This document shows, in pieces, positions 12,791 to 23,275 of a stretch of 32,379 nucleotides of DNA. The first letter of the stretch is position 1. Each line of letters begins with the position of its first letter. Under the pieces are notes generated by a model. That model was not told the origin of the DNA and made no database searches. It saw only the letters and a list, made by a program, of their open reading frames with translations. This DNA comes from Planctomycetota bacterium (GTDB lineage Bacteria; Planctomycetota; Phycisphaerae; Sedimentisphaerales; Anaerobacaceae), in NCBI GenBank assembly GCA_023135865.1, contig JAGLSG010000057.1, forward strand, positions 1 through 32,379, read 5' to 3'. The position numbers and the translations under genes are program-made.

Positions 12791-13993
12791 ATGGCTTCGA
12801 TATGTTTCTATTTTCAGGTGCATCAACCTACAAGATTAAAACATTACACAGTTTTCGATAAAAAGGAACACTATTTTGACGACCATAAAAATGGCACCAT
12901 TTGTAAAAAGGTTGCGGAAAAATGCTACCTTCCTGCAAATCGTCTGCTCCTTGATGTAATAAATAAATTTCAGGGCAAATTCAAAATATCCTATAGCATA
13001 ACCGGCGTTCTTTTAGAACAGCTTTTCTCATTTTCACCTAAGGTCATAGATACTTTTTGCCAGCTCGCTGAAACCGGATGCGTCGAATTTCTCGCTGAAA
13101 CATATTACCATAGTTTAAGTTTTTTATATTCACATGATGAATTTATAGAGCAGGTAAACAAACATACAAAAGCCATAGAAACACTTTTCGGACAAAAGCC
13201 GAAGGTATTTAGAAATACAGAACTGATATACAATAATGATTTAGCCCAGCTTATTGAATCAATGGGCTGCTTTGATGCAATAATCACCGAAGGCGCAGAC
13301 CATATCCTCGGCTATCGAAGCCCAAATTTTGTCTATACTCCAAGCGGATGCAGCAAATTGAAACTTTTACTGAAAAACTATTCGCTCAGTGATGATGTTG
13401 CGTTCAGATTTTCAAATCGCAACTGGGCACAATGGCCGCTGACAGCAGATAAATTTGCACGCTGGATAAACAAAGTCAATGGAAATGGTAATGTTGTCAA
13501 TCTGTTTATGGATTATGAAACATTCGGTGAACATCAATGGGAAAACACAGGCATATTTGAGTTTATGAAACATTTACCAGAAGAGATTTTAAGACATCCC
13601 GACAATAATTTCAAAACGCCAAGCGAAGTGGCCGAGTCCTACCCGTCAATGGATACGGTTGACGTACCGCATCTGATTAGCTGGGCGGATACAGAAAGAG
13701 ACCTTTCTGCGTGGCTTGGAAACGCAATGCAATCCAACGCAATCCATGAGCTATATCGATTGGAAAAAAAGGTGAAAAATTTCAGCGACGATAAGCTGCT
13801 CTCAGATTGGCGGAAGCTGCAAACATCTGACCACTTCTATTATATGTGTACGAAATATTTTGCTGATGGCGATGTGCATAAATACTTCAATCCTTATGAC
13901 TCGCCCTACGATTCTTACATTAACTTTATGAATGTGCTGGGCAACCTTCAGAAGCGTTGTTCCAAAAAAGAAGATACAGTTTGCCCTGTCTAA
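12791..13993 (+). CDS. GH57 alpha-amylase/glucanotransferase-type glycoside hydrolase
   Basis: This is a 400-aa glycoside hydrolase of family 57, a cytoplasmic enzyme acting on alpha-1,4-glucan. The (beta/alpha)7 barrel motifs are visible in order: FYFQVHQP with His11 (region 1), FLAETYYHS (about 100-108, region 2), FRNTELIYNND with the likely nucleophile E144 (region 3), and LFMDYETFGEHQ with the likely acid/base D241 (region 4). AGGTGGG about nine bases before the ATG is the ribosome site. There is no signal peptide. It lies between the synthase-like and debranching genes, so a role in glycogen turnover or branching is inferred. Whether it hydrolyses, transfers or branches cannot be told from these motifs. 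Confidence 0.88.
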   Translation: MASICFYFQVHQPTRLKHYTVFDKKEHYFDDHKNGTICKKVAEKCYLPANRLLLDVINKFQGKFKISYSITGVLLEQLFSFSPKVIDTFCQLAETGCVEFLAETYYHSLSFLYSHDEFIEQVNKHTKAIETLFGQKPKVFRNTELIYNNDLAQLIESMGCFDAIITEGADHILGYRSPNFVYTPSGCSKLKLLLKNYSLSDDVAFRFSNRNWAQWPLTADKFARWINKVNGNGNVVNLFMDYETFGEHQWENTGIFEFMKHLPEEILRHPDNNFKTPSEVAESYPSMDTVDVPHLISWADTERDLSAWLGNAMQSNAIHELYRLEKKVKNFSDDKLLSDWRKLQTSDHFYYMCTKYFADGDVHKYFNPYDSPYDSYINFMNVLGNLQKRCSKKEDTVCPV

Positions 13994-13997
13994 TCGT

Positions 13998-16016
13998 ATG
14001 CTATCTTACATTAGCCACTTTTTTAAGAGTAAAACTTTGCCTGCAATTCAAACTGACAATAACATCAATACTTCTTTAGAAATCATCAACAATTCCGCTG
14101 GAGATTTGCTGAATAAAGAGTGGCTTCTCACAAATAATCGTGGTGGATACGCATCATCCACAGTCGTCGGTTGCAATACAAGAAGATACCACGGCTTATT
14201 AATCGGCTCTCCAAATCCTCCAGCTAACCGGATAATGGCACTGGGCAACTTGCTTGAAACAATCCAAACCGGCAGCGAAACATTTAATCTTAGCACCTTT
14301 GAATTTGATAATGGATTTTATCCCGAAGGATTTGTCTGCATAAAACAATTCCGCAAAGATATTGGCGTGCATTTCGACTATGAGTTCGGAAAATTCCAAC
14401 TCACCAAATCCATATACCTTTTGCACAACAGTGATACAGTTGCCATAACTTATGATTTTAAGAACATTGATGAAGAGCTTAAATTTTCACTGCGGCCTCT
14501 AATTGGTTTGCGGGATTTTCACCAGCTCCAAAAATCTTATGTCAAATTATCCGCAACCGATTTCAATAACGATTTAGTGATTCGCTGCAATGAGGATGAA
14601 AGCTGCAAATTATTCTTGAATTGCCCCGATGCAAATTTCCAAAAGGATGAGCAATGGTGGTTTAATTTTGTATATCGCAGCGACAGGCAAAGGGGTCAGG
14701 ATTTCAAAGAAGACCTCTGGTCGCCGGGAATTTTTAACTACAATATAAATTCGCCAGCAAAAATCGTTTTCATTGCTTCATTAAATCCAATCGAAAATTT
14801 CAAGCTTCAAAATGCCATTGAAGATTTATGTAAGCACGAAGAAAATATAAAACAAAATATAAAATGCAATGTGCAAGATGCAAAATATGAAACGCTTTGT
14901 CTGGCCGCTGACCAGTTTATCGTAAATCGAGTTACGAACGACGAGTTACGAGCGACGGTTTTGGCCGGCTTTCCATGGTTTATGGATTGGGGAAGAGATG
15001 CCTTTATAGCTCTTCCGGGACTGCTTTTGGAAACAGGCAGATTCGATGAGGCAAAATCTGTGCTTACAACATTTGCCGCACATGCGGAAGATGGAATGAT
15101 TCCAAATCGTTTTGATGATAGAACAAGTGAATTACATTTCAACAGCGTTGATGCTTCTCTATGGTTTATCAATGCAGCCTTTCAATATGTGGCGGCTACA
15201 AGCGATGGCGAAACTTTTTATAAAAAACTTTTGCCGGTAATTATTGAAATTGTAAATGCTTATTACGAGGGAACAAAATTCGGAATTTGCGGCGATTGCG
15301 ATGGCCTAATAACTGCGGGCAATAAAGAAACTCAGTTAACCTGGATGGATGCAAAATATAATGGTATAGCTTTTACGCCTCGATACGGAAAATCAGTTGA
15401 AATCAACGCCCTTTGGTACAATGCACTTTGCCGCCTATCATCTATCAGTTGCAAAACGCCGGTAGGTTTAAATCAACTCGCCGAAAATTTCCGCAAATTA
15501 TTCTGGAATGAAACAACCGGCTATTTAAACGATTGCATTTTGCCGGACGGCTCTGTCGATTCATCACTTCGGCCAAACCAGATTTTCGCTGTCTCGCTCC
15601 CATTTTCGCCTTTAACAATTGAGCAGCAAAAGGCGGTTGTTGATACAGTTGAAAAAACCCTTTTAACGCCCTACGGCCTTAGAACTCTAACCGCTACTGA
15701 CCCAAGATACAAAGGTACCTGCATAGGCAATCAGCTCCAGCGAGATAGTGCTTATCATCAGGGGACTGTCTGGCCATATTTAATGGGAGCATTTGTTCAG
15801 GCGTATCTGAAGGCAAATAAATTCAGCAAAAAAAGTAAAACAAAAGCCGCTGCTTTTATCGAGCCGTTAATGCAGCATTTAACAAACGATGGCTGTATTG
15901 GCAGCGTATCGGAAATATTCGATGGCGATTTTCCTCACAAGCCAAGGGGCTGTTTCGCCCAGGCGTGGAGCGTCGCTGAACTTATAAGGGCTTATCGCAT
16001 AATAACAAAAGATTAA
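13998..16016 (+). CDS. Glycogen debranching enzyme (amylo-alpha-1,6-glucosidase, GH133-like)
   Basis: This is a 672-aa enzyme that removes alpha-1,6 branch points. The N-terminal domain carries the family opening EWLLTNNRGGYASSTVVGCNTRRYHGLL. The C-terminal (alpha/alpha)6 barrel has FPWFMDWGRDAFIALPGLL (about 325-343), the SVDASLWFINA segment, TWMDAK and HQGTVWPYLMGAF. The open frame reaches back to 13932 inside the GH57 gene. The ATG at 13998, four bases after the GH57 stop, is chosen; no strong ribosome site exists, so translation may be coupled. The linker between the domains contains two 7-nt-period insertions, coding residues about 282-298 and 311-320. It converges with trpA, with two bases between the stops. 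Confidence 0.9.
   Translation: MLSYISHFFKSKTLPAIQTDNNINTSLEIINNSAGDLLNKEWLLTNNRGGYASSTVVGCNTRRYHGLLIGSPNPPANRIMALGNLLETIQTGSETFNLSTFEFDNGFYPEGFVCIKQFRKDIGVHFDYEFGKFQLTKSIYLLHNSDTVAITYDFKNIDEELKFSLRPLIGLRDFHQLQKSYVKLSATDFNNDLVIRCNEDESCKLFLNCPDANFQKDEQWWFNFVYRSDRQRGQDFKEDLWSPGIFNYNINSPAKIVFIASLNPIENFKLQNAIEDLCKHEENIKQNIKCNVQDAKYETLCLAADQFIVNRVTNDELRATVLAGFPWFMDWGRDAFIALPGLLLETGRFDEAKSVLTTFAAHAEDGMIPNRFDDRTSELHFNSVDASLWFINAAFQYVAATSDGETFYKKLLPVIIEIVNAYYEGTKFGICGDCDGLITAGNKETQLTWMDAKYNGIAFTPRYGKSVEINALWYNALCRLSSISCKTPVGLNQLAENFRKLFWNETTGYLNDCILPDGSVDSSLRPNQIFAVSLPFSPLTIEQQKAVVDTVEKTLLTPYGLRTLTATDPRYKGTCIGNQLQRDSAYHQGTVWPYLMGAFVQAYLKANKFSKKSKTKAAAFIEPLMQHLTNDGCIGSVSEIFDGDFPHKPRGCFAQAWSVAELIRAYRIITKD
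14841..14889 (+). repeat. AT-rich heptad array inside the debranching enzyme gene
   Basis: Seven 7-base units run in phase. The central ones are variants of AAATGCA (AAATGCA, ATGTGCA, AGATGCA at 14862-14882). The stretch codes the linker reading ENIKQNIKCNVQDAKYE, just before the conserved LCLAADQFIV segment. It resembles the AAAATGC-type units of the trpD-trpF gap. Confidence 0.5.
14928..14957 (+). repeat. GC-rich heptad insertion in the debranching enzyme gene (RVTNDELRAT)
   Basis: Four 7-base units of consensus GNNACGR begin at 14931 with GTTACGA. They encode the last nine residues of RVTNDELRAT, residues 311-320, between ADQFIVN and VLAGFPWFMDWGRD, where homologues have a short variable turn. 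The same unit, in the same phase, recurs in trpE (21649-21681) and kdsB (22853-22888). Confidence 0.8.
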
Positions 16017-16018
16017 TA

Positions 16019-16819
16019 TTATGCGTTATTATCAAGAGCGGTTTTAACTTCGCCCACAAACGCTGAAACATCAGCGAGCATTTTTTCTTTATTTTCAATA
16101 TTGGCCTCAATAAATCCCACTATTTTCGATCCGATTATAACGCCATCGGCTCCGGCTGATGCAATAGTCGCAGCGTGCTGAGCAGTGCTAATACCAAAGC
16201 CAACACAAATCGGAACGTCTGTTAATCCTTTTAATCGGCCAATCAATTCTCCTATATGGCCGGACAGTTGTTTTCTGCTGCCAGTAACACCCAAAAGAGA
16301 AACCGTATAAATAAAACCGGTGGTTTTCGAGGCAATCAATTTCATTCTCTCTTCGCTGGTGTTAGGCGTTACCATAAAAACAGTATCAAGACCAGCTGAC
16401 TTTGCAAATCCATCAATTTCGTTAGCATCATCAACACTCAAATCAGCAATTAGAACACTATTTACGCCTGCCTGATGGAAATCGTTGAAGAATTTTTCAG
16501 TTCCATACTGATAAATAAGGTTGTAATACATCAACAAACCAATGGGAATATCTTTGTAATCTTTGACCTTCTTTATAAATTCGAGTGCCTTTTTTACAGT
16601 CATACCATTACATAGGGAGCGAATGTCCGCCTTTTGAATTGTCGGACCGTCAGCAATGGGGTCGGAAAAAGGAATACCCAATTCCAGAATATCAGCTCCC
16701 GCATCGATAGCTGCTTTGACAACTTCAAAACTCGTATCAAAAGCAGGGTCTCCGATAACAAAAAACGGAATCAATGCTGCTCTTTTTAATTCGGAAAAAA
16801 CCTGTTTATATGTCTTCAT
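16019..16819 (-). CDS. trpA: Tryptophan synthase alpha chain
   Basis: The alpha subunit cleaves indole-3-glycerol phosphate to indole and glyceraldehyde 3-phosphate, and passes indole through a tunnel to TrpB. The 266-aa TIM barrel has the catalytic pair E46 in LELGIPFSDP and D57 in IADGPTIQKA, the active-site loop FIYTVSLLGVTGSR, and the phosphate site GFGIS. AAGGA eight bases upstream marks the ATG at 16819. It is the last gene of the trp operon, 10 bp after trpB. No terminator is visible before the convergent debranching gene, whose stop is two bases away. Confidence 0.97.
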   Translation of the reverse strand: MKTYKQVFSELKRAALIPFFVIGDPAFDTSFEVVKAAIDAGADILELGIPFSDPIADGPTIQKADIRSLCNGMTVKKALEFIKKVKDYKDIPIGLLMYYNLIYQYGTEKFFNDFHQAGVNSVLIADLSVDDANEIDGFAKSAGLDTVFMVTPNTSEERMKLIASKTTGFIYTVSLLGVTGSRKQLSGHIGELIGRLKGLTDVPICVGFGISTAQHAATIASAGADGVIIGSKIVGFIEANIENKEKMLADVSAFVGEVKTALDNNA

Positions 16820-16829
16820 TTATCGTTCC

Positions 16830-18005
16830 TTACTTCAATGGCCGGCATTTTTCAACAATTGAAACATCCTTATCGCCTCTGCCGGAAAGATTTACTACCA
16901 CAACCGTATCAGAAGGTAATTTACCCGACTGGCTAATTACATAAGCCAAAGCGTGCGAACTCTCGAGAGCCGGAATTATTCCCTCTTTTTTTGTCAGCAA
17001 CGCAAAGGCATCGAGCACTTCGGCATCTTCCGCAGCTACATATTTCGCTCTGCCGCTGTCTTTTAGCATACAGTGTTCCGGGCCAACAGCCGCATAATCC
17101 AAACCGGCACTTACTGATTCAGTTTCATAAACTTGTCCTTCTTTATCCTGCAGGAGATACGCCTTTGCTCCGTGCAAAATGCCAACCTTTCCAACTACAA
17201 GCGTAGCAGCATGTTTTCCACTGGCCACACTTTTTCCGCCAGCTTCGACACCAACCAGCTTTACTTTTTCATCATCCATAAAGCCGGAAAAAATACCTAT
17301 CGCATTACTTCCGCCGCCGACACAGGCAACCACCACATCCGGCAATCGGCCGATTTGGTCGAGACACTGGCTTCTGGCTTCTGTGCCAATGCAGGTTTGA
17401 AAATGTTTTACTATTGTCGGATACGGATGCGGGCCACAGGCCGAGCCAAAAAGATAAAACGTATCGGACACATGAGCCGTCCAGTATCGCAGGGCATCAT
17501 TGATAGCATCTTTTAGCGTACCTGTTCCACCTTCAACAGCAATTACTTCGGCTCCGCAAAGTTTCATTTTATGGACGTTGACGCTTTGACGTTCAATATC
17601 GGTTACGCCCATAAAGATTTTCGTTTCCATTCCGAATAATGCGCCAATCATCGCCGTGGCCAGGCCGTGTTGGCCGGCACCGGTTTCAGCAATCAATTTG
17701 GTTTTGCCCATATATTTGGCTAACAGACCCTGACCAAGCGTATTGTTTACTTTGTGCGCTCCGCCATGAAGCAGGTCTTCACGTTTTATGTAAACCTTGA
17801 ATCCGACATATTCACTGAATCTTTTTGCATAGTAAAGCGGAGTTGGCCTGCCTGCATAATTTTTTGAAAGCTCGGCAAGTTCAGCAACGAAACCATCATC
17901 CTTATAGAAACGATAAAATTCTCGCTCCAATTCTTCGAGAACCGGAATCAAAACTTCCGGCACATAAAATCCGCCGTAATCGCCAAATCTGCCTTTATAT
18001 TTCAT
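16830..18005 (-). CDS. trpB: Tryptophan synthase beta chain
   Basis: This is a PLP enzyme that condenses indole with serine to tryptophan, as an alpha2-beta2 complex with TrpA. The 391-aa protein is of the TrpB1 type. It shows the N-terminal [13 protein letters not shown], the PLP lysine K85 in [13 protein letters not shown], the E-T-G-A-G-Q-H loop with the catalytic Glu, and the Gly-rich phosphate-binding [14 protein letters not shown] about ten bases upstream supports the ATG at 18005. It lies 52 bp after trpF and 10 bp before trpA. Confidence 0.97.
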
Positions 18006-18057
18006 AATTCATTCCTCATTCAACGCTTGGCATAAATCCGAATATAAAATTTCGAAT

Positions 18058-18681
18058 TCATCCTCTCAAATGTCGTATATTTTCAAATAATTCCTTCATT
18101 TTTTTGTGGTCTTTTTTTCCCGGCTCAGATTCAATACCGCTGCAAACATCAATTCCATAAACTCCGAGTTTGACAGCTTCTGCCGCATTATCAGCATTGA
18201 TTCCGCCAGCCAGAAAAATCCGCTTGGTAATATCGCCTATAATATTCCAGTCGAATTTTATTCCTGTTCCGCCGTATTTTTCCGGATGAAATGCGTCGAG
18301 CAAAATGGCATCGGTGAAATAGTTGTCTGCTTTTTCAATATCAGCTTCATCTTTTACTCGCAGTGCCTTCATAGTCTTGACATTAACCGAAAGAAATGAA
18401 CGGCAAAATTCGGGGCTTTCATCGCCATGCAGTTGTATCCAATTTAATTTGCACTGGTGTCTGATTTTACAAATTTCTTCAAACTCCGCATTTACAAACA
18501 CTCCGGCAATATCAACAAAAGCCGGCAATTTTGCTATTAATTCTGTAGCTTTTTGCGGTGTAATGTATCTTGAACTTTTCGAATAAAAATTGAATCCCAG
18601 CAAATCGGCACCCATATCCAGCGCCGCAGCTGCATCTTCATAATTTGTAAGTCCGCAAATTTTAACTTTTACTATCAACAT
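18058..18681 (-). CDS. trpF: Phosphoribosylanthranilate isomerase
   Basis: This enzyme performs the Amadori rearrangement of N-(5-phosphoribosyl)anthranilate to CdRP. The 207-aa TIM barrel has the catalytic Cys9 in VKICGLTNYEDA, the catalytic Asp in ILLDAFHPEKYGGTG, and the phosphate-binding LAGGINADN. No clear ribosome site precedes the ATG at 18681. The upstream sequence is entirely the AT-rich heptad array, which may have replaced the normal intergenic signals. Its product CdRP needs TrpC, which is not encoded next to it as it commonly is. Confidence 0.96.
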   Translation of the reverse strand: MLIVKVKICGLTNYEDAAAALDMGADLLGFNFYSKSSRYITPQKATELIAKLPAFVDIAGVFVNAEFEEICKIRHQCKLNWIQLHGDESPEFCRSFLSVNVKTMKALRVKDEADIEKADNYFTDAILLDAFHPEKYGGTGIKFDWNIIGDITKRIFLAGGINADNAAEAVKLGVYGIDVCSGIESEPGKKDHKKMKELFENIRHLRG

Positions 18682-18687
18682 AAGAAA

Positions 18688-18781
18688 TTAAAAACTTAAA
18701 GCTAAAAACTGAAAACTATAACTAAAAATTTAAAAGTTTTGAATTTTAAACTATGGTTTTGCATTTTGAGTTTTACACTTT
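18688..18781. repeat. Two-armed AT-rich heptad array between trpD and trpF
   Basis: On the plus strand, heptads of the AAAAACT type run from about 18688 to 18725. TTTTGAA/TTTTGAG-type heptads run from about 18736 to 18781. AAAATTTAAAA and TTTTGAATTTT at the junction can pair with one wobble, so the region could form an AT-rich hairpin. The far end overlaps the trpD stop (TAA at 18773-18775), so the array supplies the last codons of trpD. Confidence 0.6.
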
Positions 18782-19792
18782 ATTCGAGATTTCTATTAAT
18801 TTTTCCAGACAGGCATATGCTGCCCCGCTTTTTATTGAATCATCTGCGATTTTAATGCCTTTTTCAAAATCTTCCGCAAGGCCTCCCGCAATTATCGCAG
18901 CCGCTGCATTCAAAATAACAATATCTCTGCAATGGCCACTGTCTTTACCTGTTAGAATAGCCCTTGCAAGCTCAGCACTGCTTCTAACATCAGTTACTTT
19001 TAGTTTTTCAGCGGCAACCATCTCAATACCAAAATCTTTGGGATTTAGTTCGCTGGTTGTGATTTTATCTTCTTTGAGCTGCACAATTTTAGTAACGCCA
19101 GCGGTGCTTATTTCATCAAGACCATTGCTATGCACGACCATCGCATAACGAGTTCCCAGCACTTTGAGAGCTTCGGCCATCATTTGCATTAGTCCTTCCT
19201 CTGCCACCCCCAACACCAAAGCTGCTGCACCAGCTGGATTAGTCAAAGGCCCTAAAATATTAAATACCGTCCTAAAGCCAAGCCCTTTTCGTATCGGCTG
19301 AACATGCTTCATTGCCGGATGGAACATAGGCGCAAACATAAATCCGACATGTGCTTTTTCTATGCACTCGGCTACAACTTCAGGCCCCGGAGCGATATTA
19401 ACACCAAGCTCAGCGAGAACATCCGCCGAACCGCATTTACTGGTAATCGCACGATTGCCATGCTTAGCAATATAAACCCCTGCCCCAGCTGCAACAAAAG
19501 CAGAAACAGTCGAAACATTAAAAGTTTTAACCGCTGCACCGCCCGTCCCAACAATATCCACTAAATTTTCAATGCCGGTTTCAACTTTAAGACAATGATT
19601 TCGCATAGATTTAGCAAAGCCAGCCAATTCCGCAGCAGTTACACCTTTGCTTCGCATCGCTGTGAGAAAAGCTGCAATTTGAATCTCGCTTACTTCGCCT
19701 CCGAAAACAATATCCAATAGCTGTTCGGCCTTTTCAAAACTCAAATTTTTGCCGGAAAATAACGTTTCAATATATTCGGTTATTAGAATCAT
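18773..19792 (-). CDS. trpD: Anthranilate phosphoribosyltransferase
   Basis: This enzyme transfers the phosphoribosyl group from PRPP to anthranilate. The 339-aa protein has the glycine-rich PRPP loop VDIVGTGGAAVKTFNVST, then KHGNRAITSKCGSADVLAELG, FMFAPMFHPAMKHV, and RTVFNILGPLTNPAG. These are all diagnostic for TrpD rather than for thymidine phosphorylase relatives. An upstream TTG at 19804 is possible. The ATG at 19792 with GGGA six bases ahead is preferred. It lies 15 bp after trpG. The final residues KV and the stop codon fall within the heptad array. Confidence 0.96.
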   Translation of the reverse strand: MILITEYIETLFSGKNLSFEKAEQLLDIVFGGEVSEIQIAAFLTAMRSKGVTAAELAGFAKSMRNHCLKVETGIENLVDIVGTGGAAVKTFNVSTVSAFVAAGAGVYIAKHGNRAITSKCGSADVLAELGVNIAPGPEVVAECIEKAHVGFMFAPMFHPAMKHVQPIRKGLGFRTVFNILGPLTNPAGAAALVLGVAEEGLMQMMAEALKVLGTRYAMVVHSNGLDEISTAGVTKIVQLKEDKITTSELNPKDFGIEMVAAEKLKVTDVRSSAELARAILTGKDSGHCRDIVILNAAAAIIAGGLAEDFEKGIKIADDSIKSGAAYACLEKLIEISNKV

Positions 19793-19807
19793 TTTTAATC
19801 CCAACTT

Positions 19808-20407
19808 TTATTTTTTATATTGTTCTGCAATCGATAAAACATTTTCAATTAATTTGCCGCCAGCCGGAGTCAAAATACTTTCCGGATGAAATTGCACACC
19901 AAATATTGGCAGCTCTTTATGGCGAACAGCCATAACAACCCCATCAAATTCAGCTGTTTTTTCAAGACAATCCGGCAATTCGAGGGCACACAAACTATGG
20001 TATCTTCCAGCTTGTAGCGGGTTTTCAACGCCGGCAAATATATCTTTCTGGTTGTGCGTGATTCGCGATGGTTTGCCGTGCATTGGCTTTGGTGCGTGGC
20101 CGACTTTTCCGCCGAAATACTGCACAATTATCTGATGGCCGAGACAAACACCAAATATCGGCAGTTTATCCTTGAAATAATCCACAGCCAAAAGCGAAAC
20201 ACCGGCACCATCCGGCGAACCAGGCCCAGGTGAAATCAAAAGTAAATCCGGCTTAAATTCATCAGCTACAATCTTCAATTCTTCAAGCTCAGTATCAGCT
20301 CGATAAACTTTTGCCTTACAATTACGCTTACAAAAATCATCGACAAGATTGTATGTGAACGAATCGAAATTATCGATGAACAGAATTTTTCTTGTTTTTG
20401 TTTCCAT
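19808..20407 (-). CDS. trpG: Anthranilate synthase component II (glutamine amidotransferase)
   Basis: This subunit hydrolyses glutamine and passes ammonia to TrpE. It is a 199-aa class I amidotransferase with the opening FIDNFDSFTYNLV, the oxyanion region ISPGPGSPDGAG, the nucleophile Cys88 in GVCLGHQ, and H174/E176 in QFHPESIL. The triad is therefore complete, in contrast to the CTP synthase in this window. It is a separate gene, not fused to trpD or trpE. It lies 14 bp after trpE. It could also serve folate (PabA) synthesis, as in many bacteria with one copy. Confidence 0.95.
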   Translation of the reverse strand: METKTRKILFIDNFDSFTYNLVDDFCKRNCKAKVYRADTELEELKIVADEFKPDLLLISPGPGSPDGAGVSLLAVDYFKDKLPIFGVCLGHQIIVQYFGGKVGHAPKPMHGKPSRITHNQKDIFAGVENPLQAGRYHSLCALELPDCLEKTAEFDGVVMAVRHKELPIFGVQFHPESILTPAGGKLIENVLSIAEQYKK

Positions 20408-20421
20408 AAAATTTCGCCCTG

Positions 20422-22032
20422 TTATTGTCCTCTAACCGCACGCAGGCAGGAATTCGCTTTATGCTCGGTTTCTTCAAATTCGGTTTTCGGCACACTGTCA
20501 TGAACAATGCCGGCTCCGACCCGAATATAAGCCATATGGTCTTTGACCTGCAAACTCCTGATTGTAATACAGCTGTCAAACTGGCCGTCAACTGTCAAAT
20601 AGCAAACAGCTCCGCCGTAATAGCCGCGTTTGGTTTTTTCAAAAGTACGTATCAGTTTCATCGCTTCAATTTTTGGAGCTCCGGTTAACGTTCCCATATT
20701 CATCGTAGCGAGATAAGCACTTAACGCATCGAGTTCATCGGCAAGTGTACCTTTGACATTACTGACAAGGTGCTGAACCGAAGCATATTTTTCAACCGTC
20801 AGCAATTCAGTAACTATTCTGCTTCCGGGCTTTGCCACACGAGCAATATCATTTCTCGCCAAATCAACCAGCATCATATGCTCAGCGAGTTCCTTTCGGT
20901 CAAGTTTTAGTTCGGCTTCGTATCTGAAATCCGTATCTTCATCGATTTTATCTCCGATTTTCCCTCTCGGCTTTGTGCCGGCGATTGGCCGAATTTCCAC
21001 ATTACGATTTTCAGTTCCGCTGACCCGCAGATTTAATTCAGGACTGGAACCAAGAAGAATTGTATTTTCGGTATTCAGATAGAACATATACGGCGACGGA
21101 TTCAAAGCCCTTAGCCGTTTATAAACATCAAGCGGCTCATCGGCAAATGGCTCCATTTTCGTTCGGCTCAAAACCACCTGGAAAATATCACCGTCAATAA
21201 TGTGCTGCTTGGCTGAATTGACAATTTTTTCATATTCGCCCTGCTCAGTATCAGTTGAAGCAGCCGGAAGTTTACCGGAAAATTTAGCTGGTTTTGGTAT
21301 TTCAGATTTTGAGATATTGAAATAATAATCAAAACATTCTTCGGCTTCGTCTATTGCCTTCTGACAATTCTCATCTGTGATAATGCAATTTACAACAGCA
21401 TAGCCATCTCCGCTTTCGTGGTCATAAAGAAATATATTATCCGCAAAATAAAGTTCGTAGTCGGGATTGCCGAGCAAATCGTCATTATTTTGCGGCAGCT
21501 TTTCAAACTGGTCTATAAAATCGTAGCTGATAGCTCCCAATAATCCGCAGGTTACTCTAAACGGCTTGCTCGCCAAGCTAAAAGCAAATGCCACTGCTCG
21601 AAGAACATCCATCTGATTAGTCGCTTTAAGGCGTGCCTGTTCATCGAGCTTCGTCGCTCGTTGCTCGTTGCCCGTTACTCGTATTTTTCCGGTTATGGCT
21701 TCTTCGCCAAATGAAATCGTTTCACAGAATGCGAATCTATCTTTAAGTGTAGATAAATATCTCAACATCCGCTTTCCGGTAACGCTTAGTGCTTTGATAG
21801 TAAAGTCGGCTCCGGTTCCGGTAAGATAAAGAGCCGGACTGGCTGTACCAAAGGTCAACGCACTGCTTCCAGACAAATACTCCCTTGATTCAAACAGGCA
21901 GCAGTTTTTCGCCCTGCCGTAATCGCTGAGCCGTGCAAAAAAATCAACTGGCTCACCCATTTCGATTTTTTTGACAATCGGCACAATCTGGCCTGCTTTG
22001 GCCTCTGATATTATTTTTTTATAATCATCCAT
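20422..22032 (-). CDS. trpE: Anthranilate synthase component I
   Basis: This is the first enzyme of tryptophan synthesis, converting chorismate plus ammonia to anthranilate. The 536-aa protein has the N-terminal regulatory region with CLFESREYLSGSS (about 45-57), the LES-type position linked to tryptophan feedback. The chorismate-binding core has PIAGTKPRG, LVDLARNDIARV, GTLTGAPKIEAMKLI and RVGAGIVHDSVP. Residues 118-128 (RVTGNEQRATK) come from a GC-rich heptad insertion in a variable loop. No ribosome site is visible before the ATG at 22032. It is controlled by the leader at 22292-22111 (promoter, Trp-rich peptide, attenuator). Confidence 0.96.
   Translation of the reverse strand: MDDYKKIISEAKAGQIVPIVKKIEMGEPVDFFARLSDYGRAKNCCLFESREYLSGSSALTFGTASPALYLTGTGADFTIKALSVTGKRMLRYLSTLKDRFAFCETISFGEEAITGKIRVTGNEQRATKLDEQARLKATNQMDVLRAVAFAFSLASKPFRVTCGLLGAISYDFIDQFEKLPQNNDDLLGNPDYELYFADNIFLYDHESGDGYAVVNCIITDENCQKAIDEAEECFDYYFNISKSEIPKPAKFSGKLPAASTDTEQGEYEKIVNSAKQHIIDGDIFQVVLSRTKMEPFADEPLDVYKRLRALNPSPYMFYLNTENTILLGSSPELNLRVSGTENRNVEIRPIAGTKPRGKIGDKIDEDTDFRYEAELKLDRKELAEHMMLVDLARNDIARVAKPGSRIVTELLTVEKYASVQHLVSNVKGTLADELDALSAYLATMNMGTLTGAPKIEAMKLIRTFEKTKRGYYGGAVCYLTVDGQFDSCITIRSLQVKDHMAYIRVGAGIVHDSVPKTEFEETEHKANSCLRAVRGQ
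21649..21681 (-). repeat. GC-rich heptad insertion in trpE (RVTGNEQRATK)
   Basis: On the minus strand four GNNACGR heptads (two identical, GCAACGA) lie between a CGA and a terminal AG. They encode residues 118-128 of TrpE, reading RVTGNEQRATK. Phase and strand relative to the gene are the same as in the debranching enzyme and kdsB copies. Confidence 0.8.
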
Positions 22033-22110
22033 ATTTATTACTATCTATCTATTAAGAGTTAATAAGTTACAAACCCTAATTATTATTCGCAAATGGCTCC
22101 AAATACAAAT

Positions 22111-22148
22111 AAAAAAAAAGAGCAACCTATCTTTCCGACAGGACGCTC
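22111..22148 (-). terminator. trp attenuator terminator hairpin
   Basis: On the minus strand the arm GAGCGTCCTGTC (22148-22137) pairs with GATAGGTTGCTC (22131-22120). This is 12 positions with two wobbles and one mismatch, closed by a GGAAA loop and followed by nine T (22119-22111). It lies about 80 bases before trpE. Its left arm overlaps the antiterminator partner at 22142-22135, so both cannot form together. Confidence 0.9.
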
Positions 22149-22198
22149 GCTCTACAAATTCAATATTTTTTCTAAGCAAACTAATGCACACCCGTCGG
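22135..22198 (-). promoter_or_regulatory. trp antiterminator (regions 2 and 3)
   Basis: On the minus strand CCGACGGG (22198-22191) can pair with CCTGTCGG (22142-22135), 8 bp with one wobble. That sequesters the terminator's left arm. Region 2 can instead pair with region 1: CCCG (22212-22209) with CGGG, and ACTAATTGC (22230-22222) with GCATTAGT (22187-22180). Region 1 holds the Trp codons. This is the classic alternative-structure set of ribosome-mediated attenuation. Confidence 0.85.
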
Positions 22199-22200
22199 TT

Positions 22201-22254
22201 TTATCCTTCGGGCCACCACCAGCAATTAGTATTTATGCGATTAATTTGCCTCAT
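22201..22254 (-). CDS. trpL: trp leader peptide
   Basis: This is a 17-aa open frame, MRQINRINTNCWWWPEG, starting at the ATG at 22254 and ending at TAA (22203-22201). The three consecutive TGG codons at 22221-22213 sit inside the first arm of the leader RNA structure. A ribosome starved of Trp-tRNA would stall there and free region 2 for antitermination, allowing trpE-G-D-F-B-A transcription. With plentiful tryptophan the ribosome reaches the stop and the terminator forms. No ribosome site is visible. The predicted transcription start is only about 3 bases upstream, so the peptide may be translated from a near-leaderless end. Confidence in the leader role is high because codons and structures fit together. 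Confidence 0.9.
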   Translation of the reverse strand: MRQINRINTNCWWWPEG

Positions 22255-22263
22255 AACAACTGT

Positions 22264-22292
22264 ATTAGAGCAAAATAATCCCTTTTTGTCAA
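22264..22292 (-). promoter_or_regulatory. trp operon promoter
   Basis: On the minus strand TTGACA (22292-22287) is followed by a 17-base spacer and TCTAAT (22269-22264, 5/6 of consensus). The start would fall near 22257, just before the trpL ATG. An alternative -10, TATACT, lies a little further upstream at about 22298-22293 without a good -35. Confidence 0.8.
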
Positions 22293-22320
22293 GTATAATC
22301 CAACAAACAGTTGACAAAAA
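22283..22320. promoter_or_regulatory. Perfect inverted repeat between the divergent trp and kdsB promoters
   Basis: TTTTTGTCAA (22283-22292) and TTGACAAAAA (22311-22320) are a perfect 10-bp inverted repeat around 18 bases. Each arm contains the -35 box of one divergent promoter. It may be a shared operator, or simply two similar back-to-back promoters. Confidence 0.6.
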
Positions 22321-22339
22321 ACCGATTTACACATACGAT
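22311..22339 (+). promoter_or_regulatory. kdsB promoter
   Basis: TTGACA at 22311-22316, a 17-base spacer and TACGAT at 22334-22339 (4/6). The predicted start, near 22346, leaves about 75 nt to the GTG start or 45 nt to the upstream ATG of kdsB. Confidence 0.6.
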
Positions 22340-22420
22340 GAAGCCCCAGTTGGATTTCGCATTCGCTATCAGAAAAACTTACTTTGTTAGATGCCAATTG
22401 GCCAAAGGTTTTATAAAAAA

Positions 22421-23197
22421 GTGAAAGTCTTAGTTTGTATTCCCGCTCGTTACGGCTCGACACGATTCGCTGGGAAAGTTCTCGCGAGAGAAACCGGCAA
22501 GTTCCTCATTCAACACACTTGGGAAAAGGCCTGCGGTGCAAAACTCGCTGATAGAGTAATCATTGCAGCTGACGATGAAAAAGTTATTACTGCTGCAAAA
22601 TCATTTGGCGCAAAGTGCATTTTAACATCAACTGAACATCAAAGCGGCACCGACCGCATCGCCGAAGCTGTAAAAAATATCGATTGTGATATTGTGGTAA
22701 ATCTTCAAGCCGATGAGCCGGAAATCGAGCCGGAAAACATTGATAAAGTGGCAAAACTTTTGCTCGAAAATCCAAATGAACAAATGGCTACGCTCGCTGC
22801 TGAATTTGAAACAGCAGAACAAATCGCCAATCCGAATATTGTAAAGGTGGTTGTTACGAATCACGGGTTACGAGCCACGAGTCACGGCCTCATAAAAGCG
22901 ATTTACTTTTCACGTTCTGTCATACCTTATAATAGAGACAAAGCCGGCATAGGCGATATTAGCCAATATCTGCGACACGTTGGAATTTACGCTTACCGCA
23001 AGGATTTCCTTTTGAAATTTACAGCTCTTGAGCAGACACCGCTGGAAAAAATCGAAAAACTTGAACAGTTGCGAGCAGTTGAAAATGGATTTGGCATATT
23101 GGTCGGCAAAATCAAGCACACCTGCGATGGAATTGACACGCCGCAGCAATACGCAGAATTCGTAAAAAAGTATAAAAAAGGACAAAAACAAAAATAA
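22421..23197 (+). CDS. kdsB: 3-deoxy-manno-octulosonate cytidylyltransferase (CMP-KDO synthetase)
   Basis: This enzyme activates KDO with CTP for lipopolysaccharide inner-core assembly, which marks the organism as Gram-negative with KDO-containing LPS. From the GTG the protein is 258 aa. Motifs are the nucleotide loop IPARYGSTRFAGK (7-19), HQSGTDRIAEA (73-83), LQADEPEI (95-102) and AIYFSRSVIPYNRD. An ATG at 22391 would add ten residues without a ribosome site. The GTG at 22421 matches the usual family start and has AAAGG 12 bases upstream, so I prefer it with moderate certainty. Residues 145-156 (VTNHGLRATSHG) come from a heptad insertion right before the conserved YFSR strand. It lies upstream of pyrG, which supplies its CTP. 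Confidence 0.93.
   Translation: MKVLVCIPARYGSTRFAGKVLARETGKFLIQHTWEKACGAKLADRVIIAADDEKVITAAKSFGAKCILTSTEHQSGTDRIAEAVKNIDCDIVVNLQADEPEIEPENIDKVAKLLLENPNEQMATLAAEFETAEQIANPNIVKVVVTNHGLRATSHGLIKAIYFSRSVIPYNRDKAGIGDISQYLRHVGIYAYRKDFLLKFTALEQTPLEKIEKLEQLRAVENGFGILVGKIKHTCDGIDTPQQYAEFVKKYKKGQKQK
22853..22888 (+). repeat. GC-rich heptad insertion in kdsB (VTNHGLRATSHG)
   Basis: Five 7-base units (GTTACGA twice, plus GCCACGA, ATCACGG and GTCACGG) start at 22853 and encode VTNHGLRATSHG. In E. coli KdsB (recalled) the same place, between NxVKVV and the YFSR strand, is a short turn, so about nine residues are extra. Phase and strand match the trpE and debranching-enzyme copies. Confidence 0.8.
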
Positions 23198-23202
23198 CCA
23201 TC

Positions 23203-23229
23203 TGTCATTCCTGCGGAAGCAGGAATCCA
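23203..23229 (+). repeat. Dispersed TGTCATTCC-type palindromic repeat, copy 1
   Basis: TGTC precedes a perfect hairpin ATTCCTGC/GCAGGAAT with a GGAA loop (23207-23226), then CCAG. It lies five bases after the kdsB stop. A second copy in the same orientation is at 25746-25773. A CACAGAG direct pair (23249-23264) follows before the next gene. Confidence 0.8.
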
Positions 23230-23275
23230 GAAAGTTTTTATTTTAGCCACAGAGAACACAGAGAAAAGTAAAATA

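Follow-up and report, generated by a model that had tools for sequence, protein, structure and literature searches.

Heptad arrays in the window and across the genome

Three tandem arrays of a 7-nt unit with the consensus GNNACGR were found in the window, that is, the whole 32,379-nt stretch of planctomycetotal DNA analysed here, and each lies on the coding strand of its host gene. An array of four units (positions 14931–14958, forward strand) is located in the ORF of a glycogen debranching enzyme (13932–16016, forward) and encodes VTNDELRAT. The other two comprise five units each and occur in trpE (21651–21685 in a gene at 20422–22032, both on the reverse strand; peptide KIRVTGNEQRAT) and in kdsB (22853–22887 in a gene at 22391–23197, both forward; peptide VTNHGLRATSHG). 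A preliminary description of this DNA had reported the three arrays and the near identity of their peptides, and all three indeed encode R-x-T-x-x-[E/G]-x. When up to two mismatches were allowed, (GNNACGR)3 matched the window nine times, compared with 0.08 matches expected from dinucleotide shuffles; the arrays are not a product of chance. The window also contains an AT-rich heptad hairpin with AAAACTN-type arms (18681–18782) between two ORFs (18058–18681 and 18773–19804, both reverse), and a short repeat at 23203–23233 has further copies in the genome of a congener (G001).

The genome-wide search for (GNNACGR)3 proposed in that description returned 40 exact matches in the 1.69-Mb genome, compared with two for the reversed pattern. 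The motif was present in 34 of 61 relatives, nearly all from one family of Sedimentisphaerales (Planctomycetota); hardly any GNNACGR arrays were found in the other families of this order. In a sample of loci fetched for kdsB, and not for repeats, period-7 arrays reached 64 per Mb, whereas other periods gave 0–8 per Mb, the harmonics of 14 and 21 nt excepted. Among 564 GNNACGR units, positions 4, 5, 6 and 7 (the last as R) were 96%–99% conserved and position 1 was 85% conserved, figures that are partly set by the search itself, which allowed one mismatch; all 16 dinucleotides were seen at positions 2–3. Where opposite GNNACGR arrays lay at most 120 nt apart, the order was (YCGTNNC)n–loop–(GNNACGR)n in 16 of 17 pairs. 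The inventory derives from pattern searches and fetched stretches of mostly metagenome-assembled genomes, and arrays were detected mainly with one unit pattern, so that other units are undercounted.

Reading phase, strand and host genes

At least 50 GNNACGR arrays from five genomes lie deep in long open frames, i.e., at least 25 codons inside open frames of at least 200 codons. This coding set is defined by open frames and was backed by Pfam matches in a sample; in the present genome, the Pfam-matched hosts were two UvrD helicases, ValS, PolA, a radical SAM protein, AlaS, DsbD, MurE, ArgJ and GpsA. The argument that one reading phase must be kept, either by selection or by the insertion mechanism, did not survive this wider comparison. 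Phases 0, 1 and 2 were used by 10, 18 and 11 forward arrays, respectively (n = 39, p = 0.23), and selection on phase was rejected because phase use does not depart significantly from even. As 7 has no common factor with 3, shifting the frame within a heptad array merely rotates the encoded heptapeptide, and a rotated R-x-T-x-x-[E/G]-x is obtained in any phase. Of the shared strand and phase attributed to the three window arrays, the coding strand is common to all, and phase does not act as a constraint. Across the coding set, 39 arrays were forward and 11 reverse, whereas stop codons alone would predict a ratio of approximately 31:19 (p = 0.02). The strand bias is real but modest, and the forward excess is mostly predicted by stop codons on the reverse strand.

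In MurE, a GNNACGR array occurs at the same site, before FIDYAHTDD, in this genome (L118) and in a close relative (L233, in G005), making this another shared insertion site. Heptad arrays were also observed at two loci (L025 and L246) in the segment just ahead of FSLTE-type pilin motifs.

Insertion sites in KdsB, TrpE and the debranching enzyme

The three arrays had been placed at sites where family members are shorter, which proved correct for kdsB and trpE but not for the debranching enzyme. KdsB is 9–10 residues longer at the array site than relatives without an insert, and at the same site kdsB of relatives either has no insert or carries heptads of other units (ACGCAGA, AAAACTC, GCGGACA, TGCGTNN or GGGACGA). 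Structure mapping, which had also been proposed, indicated that the KdsB insert would form a loop between predicted strands 152–155 and 169–174, with pLDDT below 50 for residues 160–164 in the predicted structure. The insert in TrpE comprises five residues and, among 30 aligned sequences, is common only to G022, where trpE has the same extra length in the same place but in (GATACGA)n units. In the debranching enzyme, the loop carrying the array is as long as that of most relatives, and at the level of sequence comparison the array is not a net insertion; some relatives have longer inserts at this site, one of them heptad.

Relatives with the same residues but no nucleotide periodicity would point to ordinary conserved loops. 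For kdsB and trpE, relatives either lacked the residues or had a different heptad unit, which rules out a conserved functional peptide in these two genes. The debranching enzyme agrees in part with a conserved loop, as conservation of the flanking R and RTT/RAT is not accompanied by periodicity. At two further loci (L038 and L043), the kdsB insert also contained a REP-like palindrome, GGATTC[CT]TGCTTTCGCAGGAATGAC, adjoining TGCGTNN heptads.

S23P genes and their heptad arms

S23P genes (PF05635, encoding the protein of 23S rRNA intervening sequences, IVS) are present in two copies in this genome and were found in 52 of 61 relatives. A period-7 array lay within 200 nt of 40 of the 61 S23P genes of relatives, compared with 44 of 462 other ORFs (Fisher p = 1.7e-21), and arrays on both sides were found for 20 of 61 and 2 of 462, respectively (Fisher p = 1.8e-18). 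With the exception of the 14-nt harmonic, other periods gave counts of only 0–5 in the S23P flanks. Most of the S23P loci examined were those with the highest match scores, and approximately one-third of the S23P genes had no detectable heptads.

The arms of one element are reverse complementary, with a score of 17.9 for cognate arms compared with 5.6 for non-cognate arms (permutation p < 5e-5, 37 elements). The heptad unit differs between S23P elements, whereas the two arms of one element share it. A universal unit motif with an ACK core was considered and dropped, because both polarity and unit vary among element families. The arms abut the S23P ORF, at a median of 14 nt before the start and 6 nt after the stop, and neighbouring genes are co-directional with the element in 83 of 95 cases (605 of 930 in the comparison set).

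GNNACGR arrays adjoin several further S23P genes (L330, L356, L365 and L376), and at L031, an unbiased locus, an S23P gene lies between the two longest arrays. Array density correlated with S23P density across 37 genomes of the family (rho 0.51, p = 0.001); however, array density was also weakly correlated with that of Y1_Tnp genes (rho 0.37, p = 0.02), so that the genome-level correlation alone is weak evidence. Some genomes, such as G009 and G028, have S23P and few or no GNNACGR arrays, which is expected if units differ but is not proof of it.

The association extends to other Planctomycetota families, in which 12 of 25 S23P genes had a period-7 array on either side and 8 had arrays on both, and to S23P genes on plasmids (13 of 14 cyanobacterial), for which the corresponding numbers were 9 and 5 of 14. 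A search of phages gave no S23P match. Of two S23P genes on plasmids of Anabaena sp. 90 and Picosynechococcus (L491 and L494), one lies between cas6 and cas4 and the other between cas10 and cmr3. Most cases of S23P inside larger ORFs appear to be read-through frames in GC-rich genomes, and only L367 and L433 look like possible fusions; at L367, a pilin-like FTLVEL segment follows the S23P ORF in the same frame.

ORF-less hairpins and filled and empty sites

Most heptad hairpins carry no S23P gene. The AT-rich hairpin of the window (18681–18782) matches both arms of an S23P copy in its own genome (L384, on contig C103) with 80% identity in each case, over 56 and 49 nt, and many more copies of it occur in this genome and in G001. 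Similarly, the insert in kdsB of G008 matches the two arms of an S23P element in the same genome, L339 (90% over 30 nt and 88% over 26 nt). Both are MITE-like in that they have the inverted repeats of a gene-bearing partner and no gene.

The congener G001 is approximately 91% identical to this genome, and because its contigs end before all three window arrays, the comparison concerns other sites. One of the genome's own S23P genes (L113, on contig C117) has GNNACGR arms: two inverted arrays surround the S23P ORF, which contains an in-frame stop, in a block of approximately 440 nt. The whole block, arms and ORF, is missing from G001, which has 24 nt in its place. One spacer was a heptad hairpin in only one of the two genomes and had no sequence in common with its counterpart. 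A single 7-nt unit was gained or lost at two sites, and the array in polA differed in its units, with its length unchanged. Pairwise alignments of such sites showed replaced spacers and no clear target-site duplication.

Origin of the arrays

Taken together, the GNNACGR arrays are probably the arms of short palindromic elements, or what is left of such arms, and the complete element would be a single S23P gene with an inverted heptad array on either side. Within the same genome, we observed a gene between two inverted heptad arms as well as related copies that lack the gene; movement of the elements is what we infer, as is the descent of the solo arms in the three window genes from S23P-type elements, since these arrays have no ORF and match an S23P element by unit consensus only. 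A full element would consist of one S23P gene between two inverted arrays of a 7-nt unit, and each element would keep its own unit while retaining period 7 and arm complementarity. ORF-less copies, i.e., arm–loop–arm hairpins and solo arms, would be dispersed through the genome like MITEs, and those in coding sequences would survive at tolerant sites, such as surface loops, provided that they leave the frame open and that their net length is divisible by 3. Such a survival filter, combined with the same cyclic peptide in every frame, could account for the three look-alike peptides of the window. The hairpins may be moved by S23P or a partner, probably through RNA, a route guessed from the resemblance of PF05635 to Avd of diversity-generating retroelements (PMC10053308) and from the sense orientation, which is like that of IVS in rRNA transcripts.

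The main rival is that S23P genes entered older heptad hairpins, the hairpins being independent STRR-like elements and the genes passengers inserted into their loops. Most hairpins indeed lack S23P, and IVS elements replace the tips of rRNA helices, with the IVS ORF in the loop of an extended helix (PMC4990558). Nevertheless, we consider this order of events unlikely, because the congener site of L113 lacks the arms as well as the ORF and is a 24-nt empty site, the arms lie within a few nucleotides of the ORF on both sides, and the two arms of each element share a unit unlike that of other elements. Replication slippage in 7-nt steps, by which local sequence would give rise to the arrays on the spot and no mobile element would be needed, would fit the gains and losses of single units between this genome and G001, but is highly improbable given that each genome has the one unit consensus at dozens of unlinked sites, that positions 2–3 vary within arrays while the other five are 85%–99% conserved, that inverted pairs have a fixed order, and that period 7 exceeds other periods among arrays whose sequences are unrelated. 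REP-like palindromes moved by RAYT/IS200-type Y1 transposases, suggested by the hairpin architecture, the presence of Y1_Tnp genes in most relatives and their weak density correlation with arrays (given above), are less credible still and, as far as Y1_Tnp transposases are concerned, largely excluded, since no arrays occur beside these genes (period-7 flanks in 0 of 22 Y1_Tnp genes; no GNNACGR arrays in 62 kb around 20 further ones) and array count does not track Y1_Tnp count (rho 0.21, p = 0.2).

Relationship to known elements

The proposed S23P elements resemble the IVS of 23S rRNA genes in Coxiella and Leptospira in having an S23P ORF between complementary ends, a length of approximately 430–480 nt and a mostly sense orientation relative to the surrounding genes. 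In the Coxiella 23S IVS, GACAGAT heptamers lie just upstream of S23p in strain-variable number (PMC4990558). Unlike these IVS, the elements examined here sit within and between protein genes and not in rRNA genes, have two heptad arms built of a unit specific to each element, and also occur as ORF-less copies scattered over the genome. They can therefore be called IVS-like, but are not strictly IVS.

The preliminary description was right to see a dispersed repeat inside conserved enzymes, and its comparison with the Rickettsia palindromic elements (RPE), short palindromic elements found in frame in unrelated proteins, is apt by analogy, the likeness being one of description; we know of no account of RPE as heptad arrays with an S23P partner. 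Its comparison with cyanobacterial heptanucleotide repeats pointed in the right direction, as cyanobacterial S23P genes have the same kind of heptad arms. Judged on architecture and not on homology of unit sequence, the arrays correspond to cyanobacterial STRR, being dispersed heptanucleotide tandem arrays. STRR and the GGGNATC repeats of Xanthomonas and Nostoc are likewise dispersed 7-nt tandem arrays of few units, often present as inverted pairs in Xanthomonas; they were reported mostly outside genes and with no link to S23P (PMC4692102), whereas many arrays here lie in core enzymes and an association with S23P was found. The TAACTGA repeats of Beggiatoaceae are likewise dispersed heptamer direct repeats, also found in cyanobacteria, but have one fixed unit, almost no inverted pairs, a position mostly just upstream of start codons and no reported S23P link (PMC4679880). 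A literature search that covered few subscription papers found no general link between heptad repeats and S23P.

To our knowledge, bacterial heptanucleotide repeats have been familiar for decades without a source, and S23P has no known role beyond odd rRNA insertions. The heptad arms of S23P elements may explain the long-known 7-nt repeats of cyanobacteria. More tentatively, and with somewhat less than even confidence, the heptad repeats of Planctomycetota, Cyanobacteria and some Proteobacteria could be regarded as arms of S23P elements, forming one IVS-like mobile class that resides both in rRNA and within or between genes for proteins; the hairpins would be copied via RNA by S23P (Avd-like) or a partner enzyme, and the 7-nt step would be set by the machinery and not by the sequence. 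On the proposed origin, DNA polymerase I, alanyl-tRNA synthetase and other core enzymes would contain in-frame pieces of the elements, and linking heptanucleotide repeats with S23P offers a testable explanation for both.
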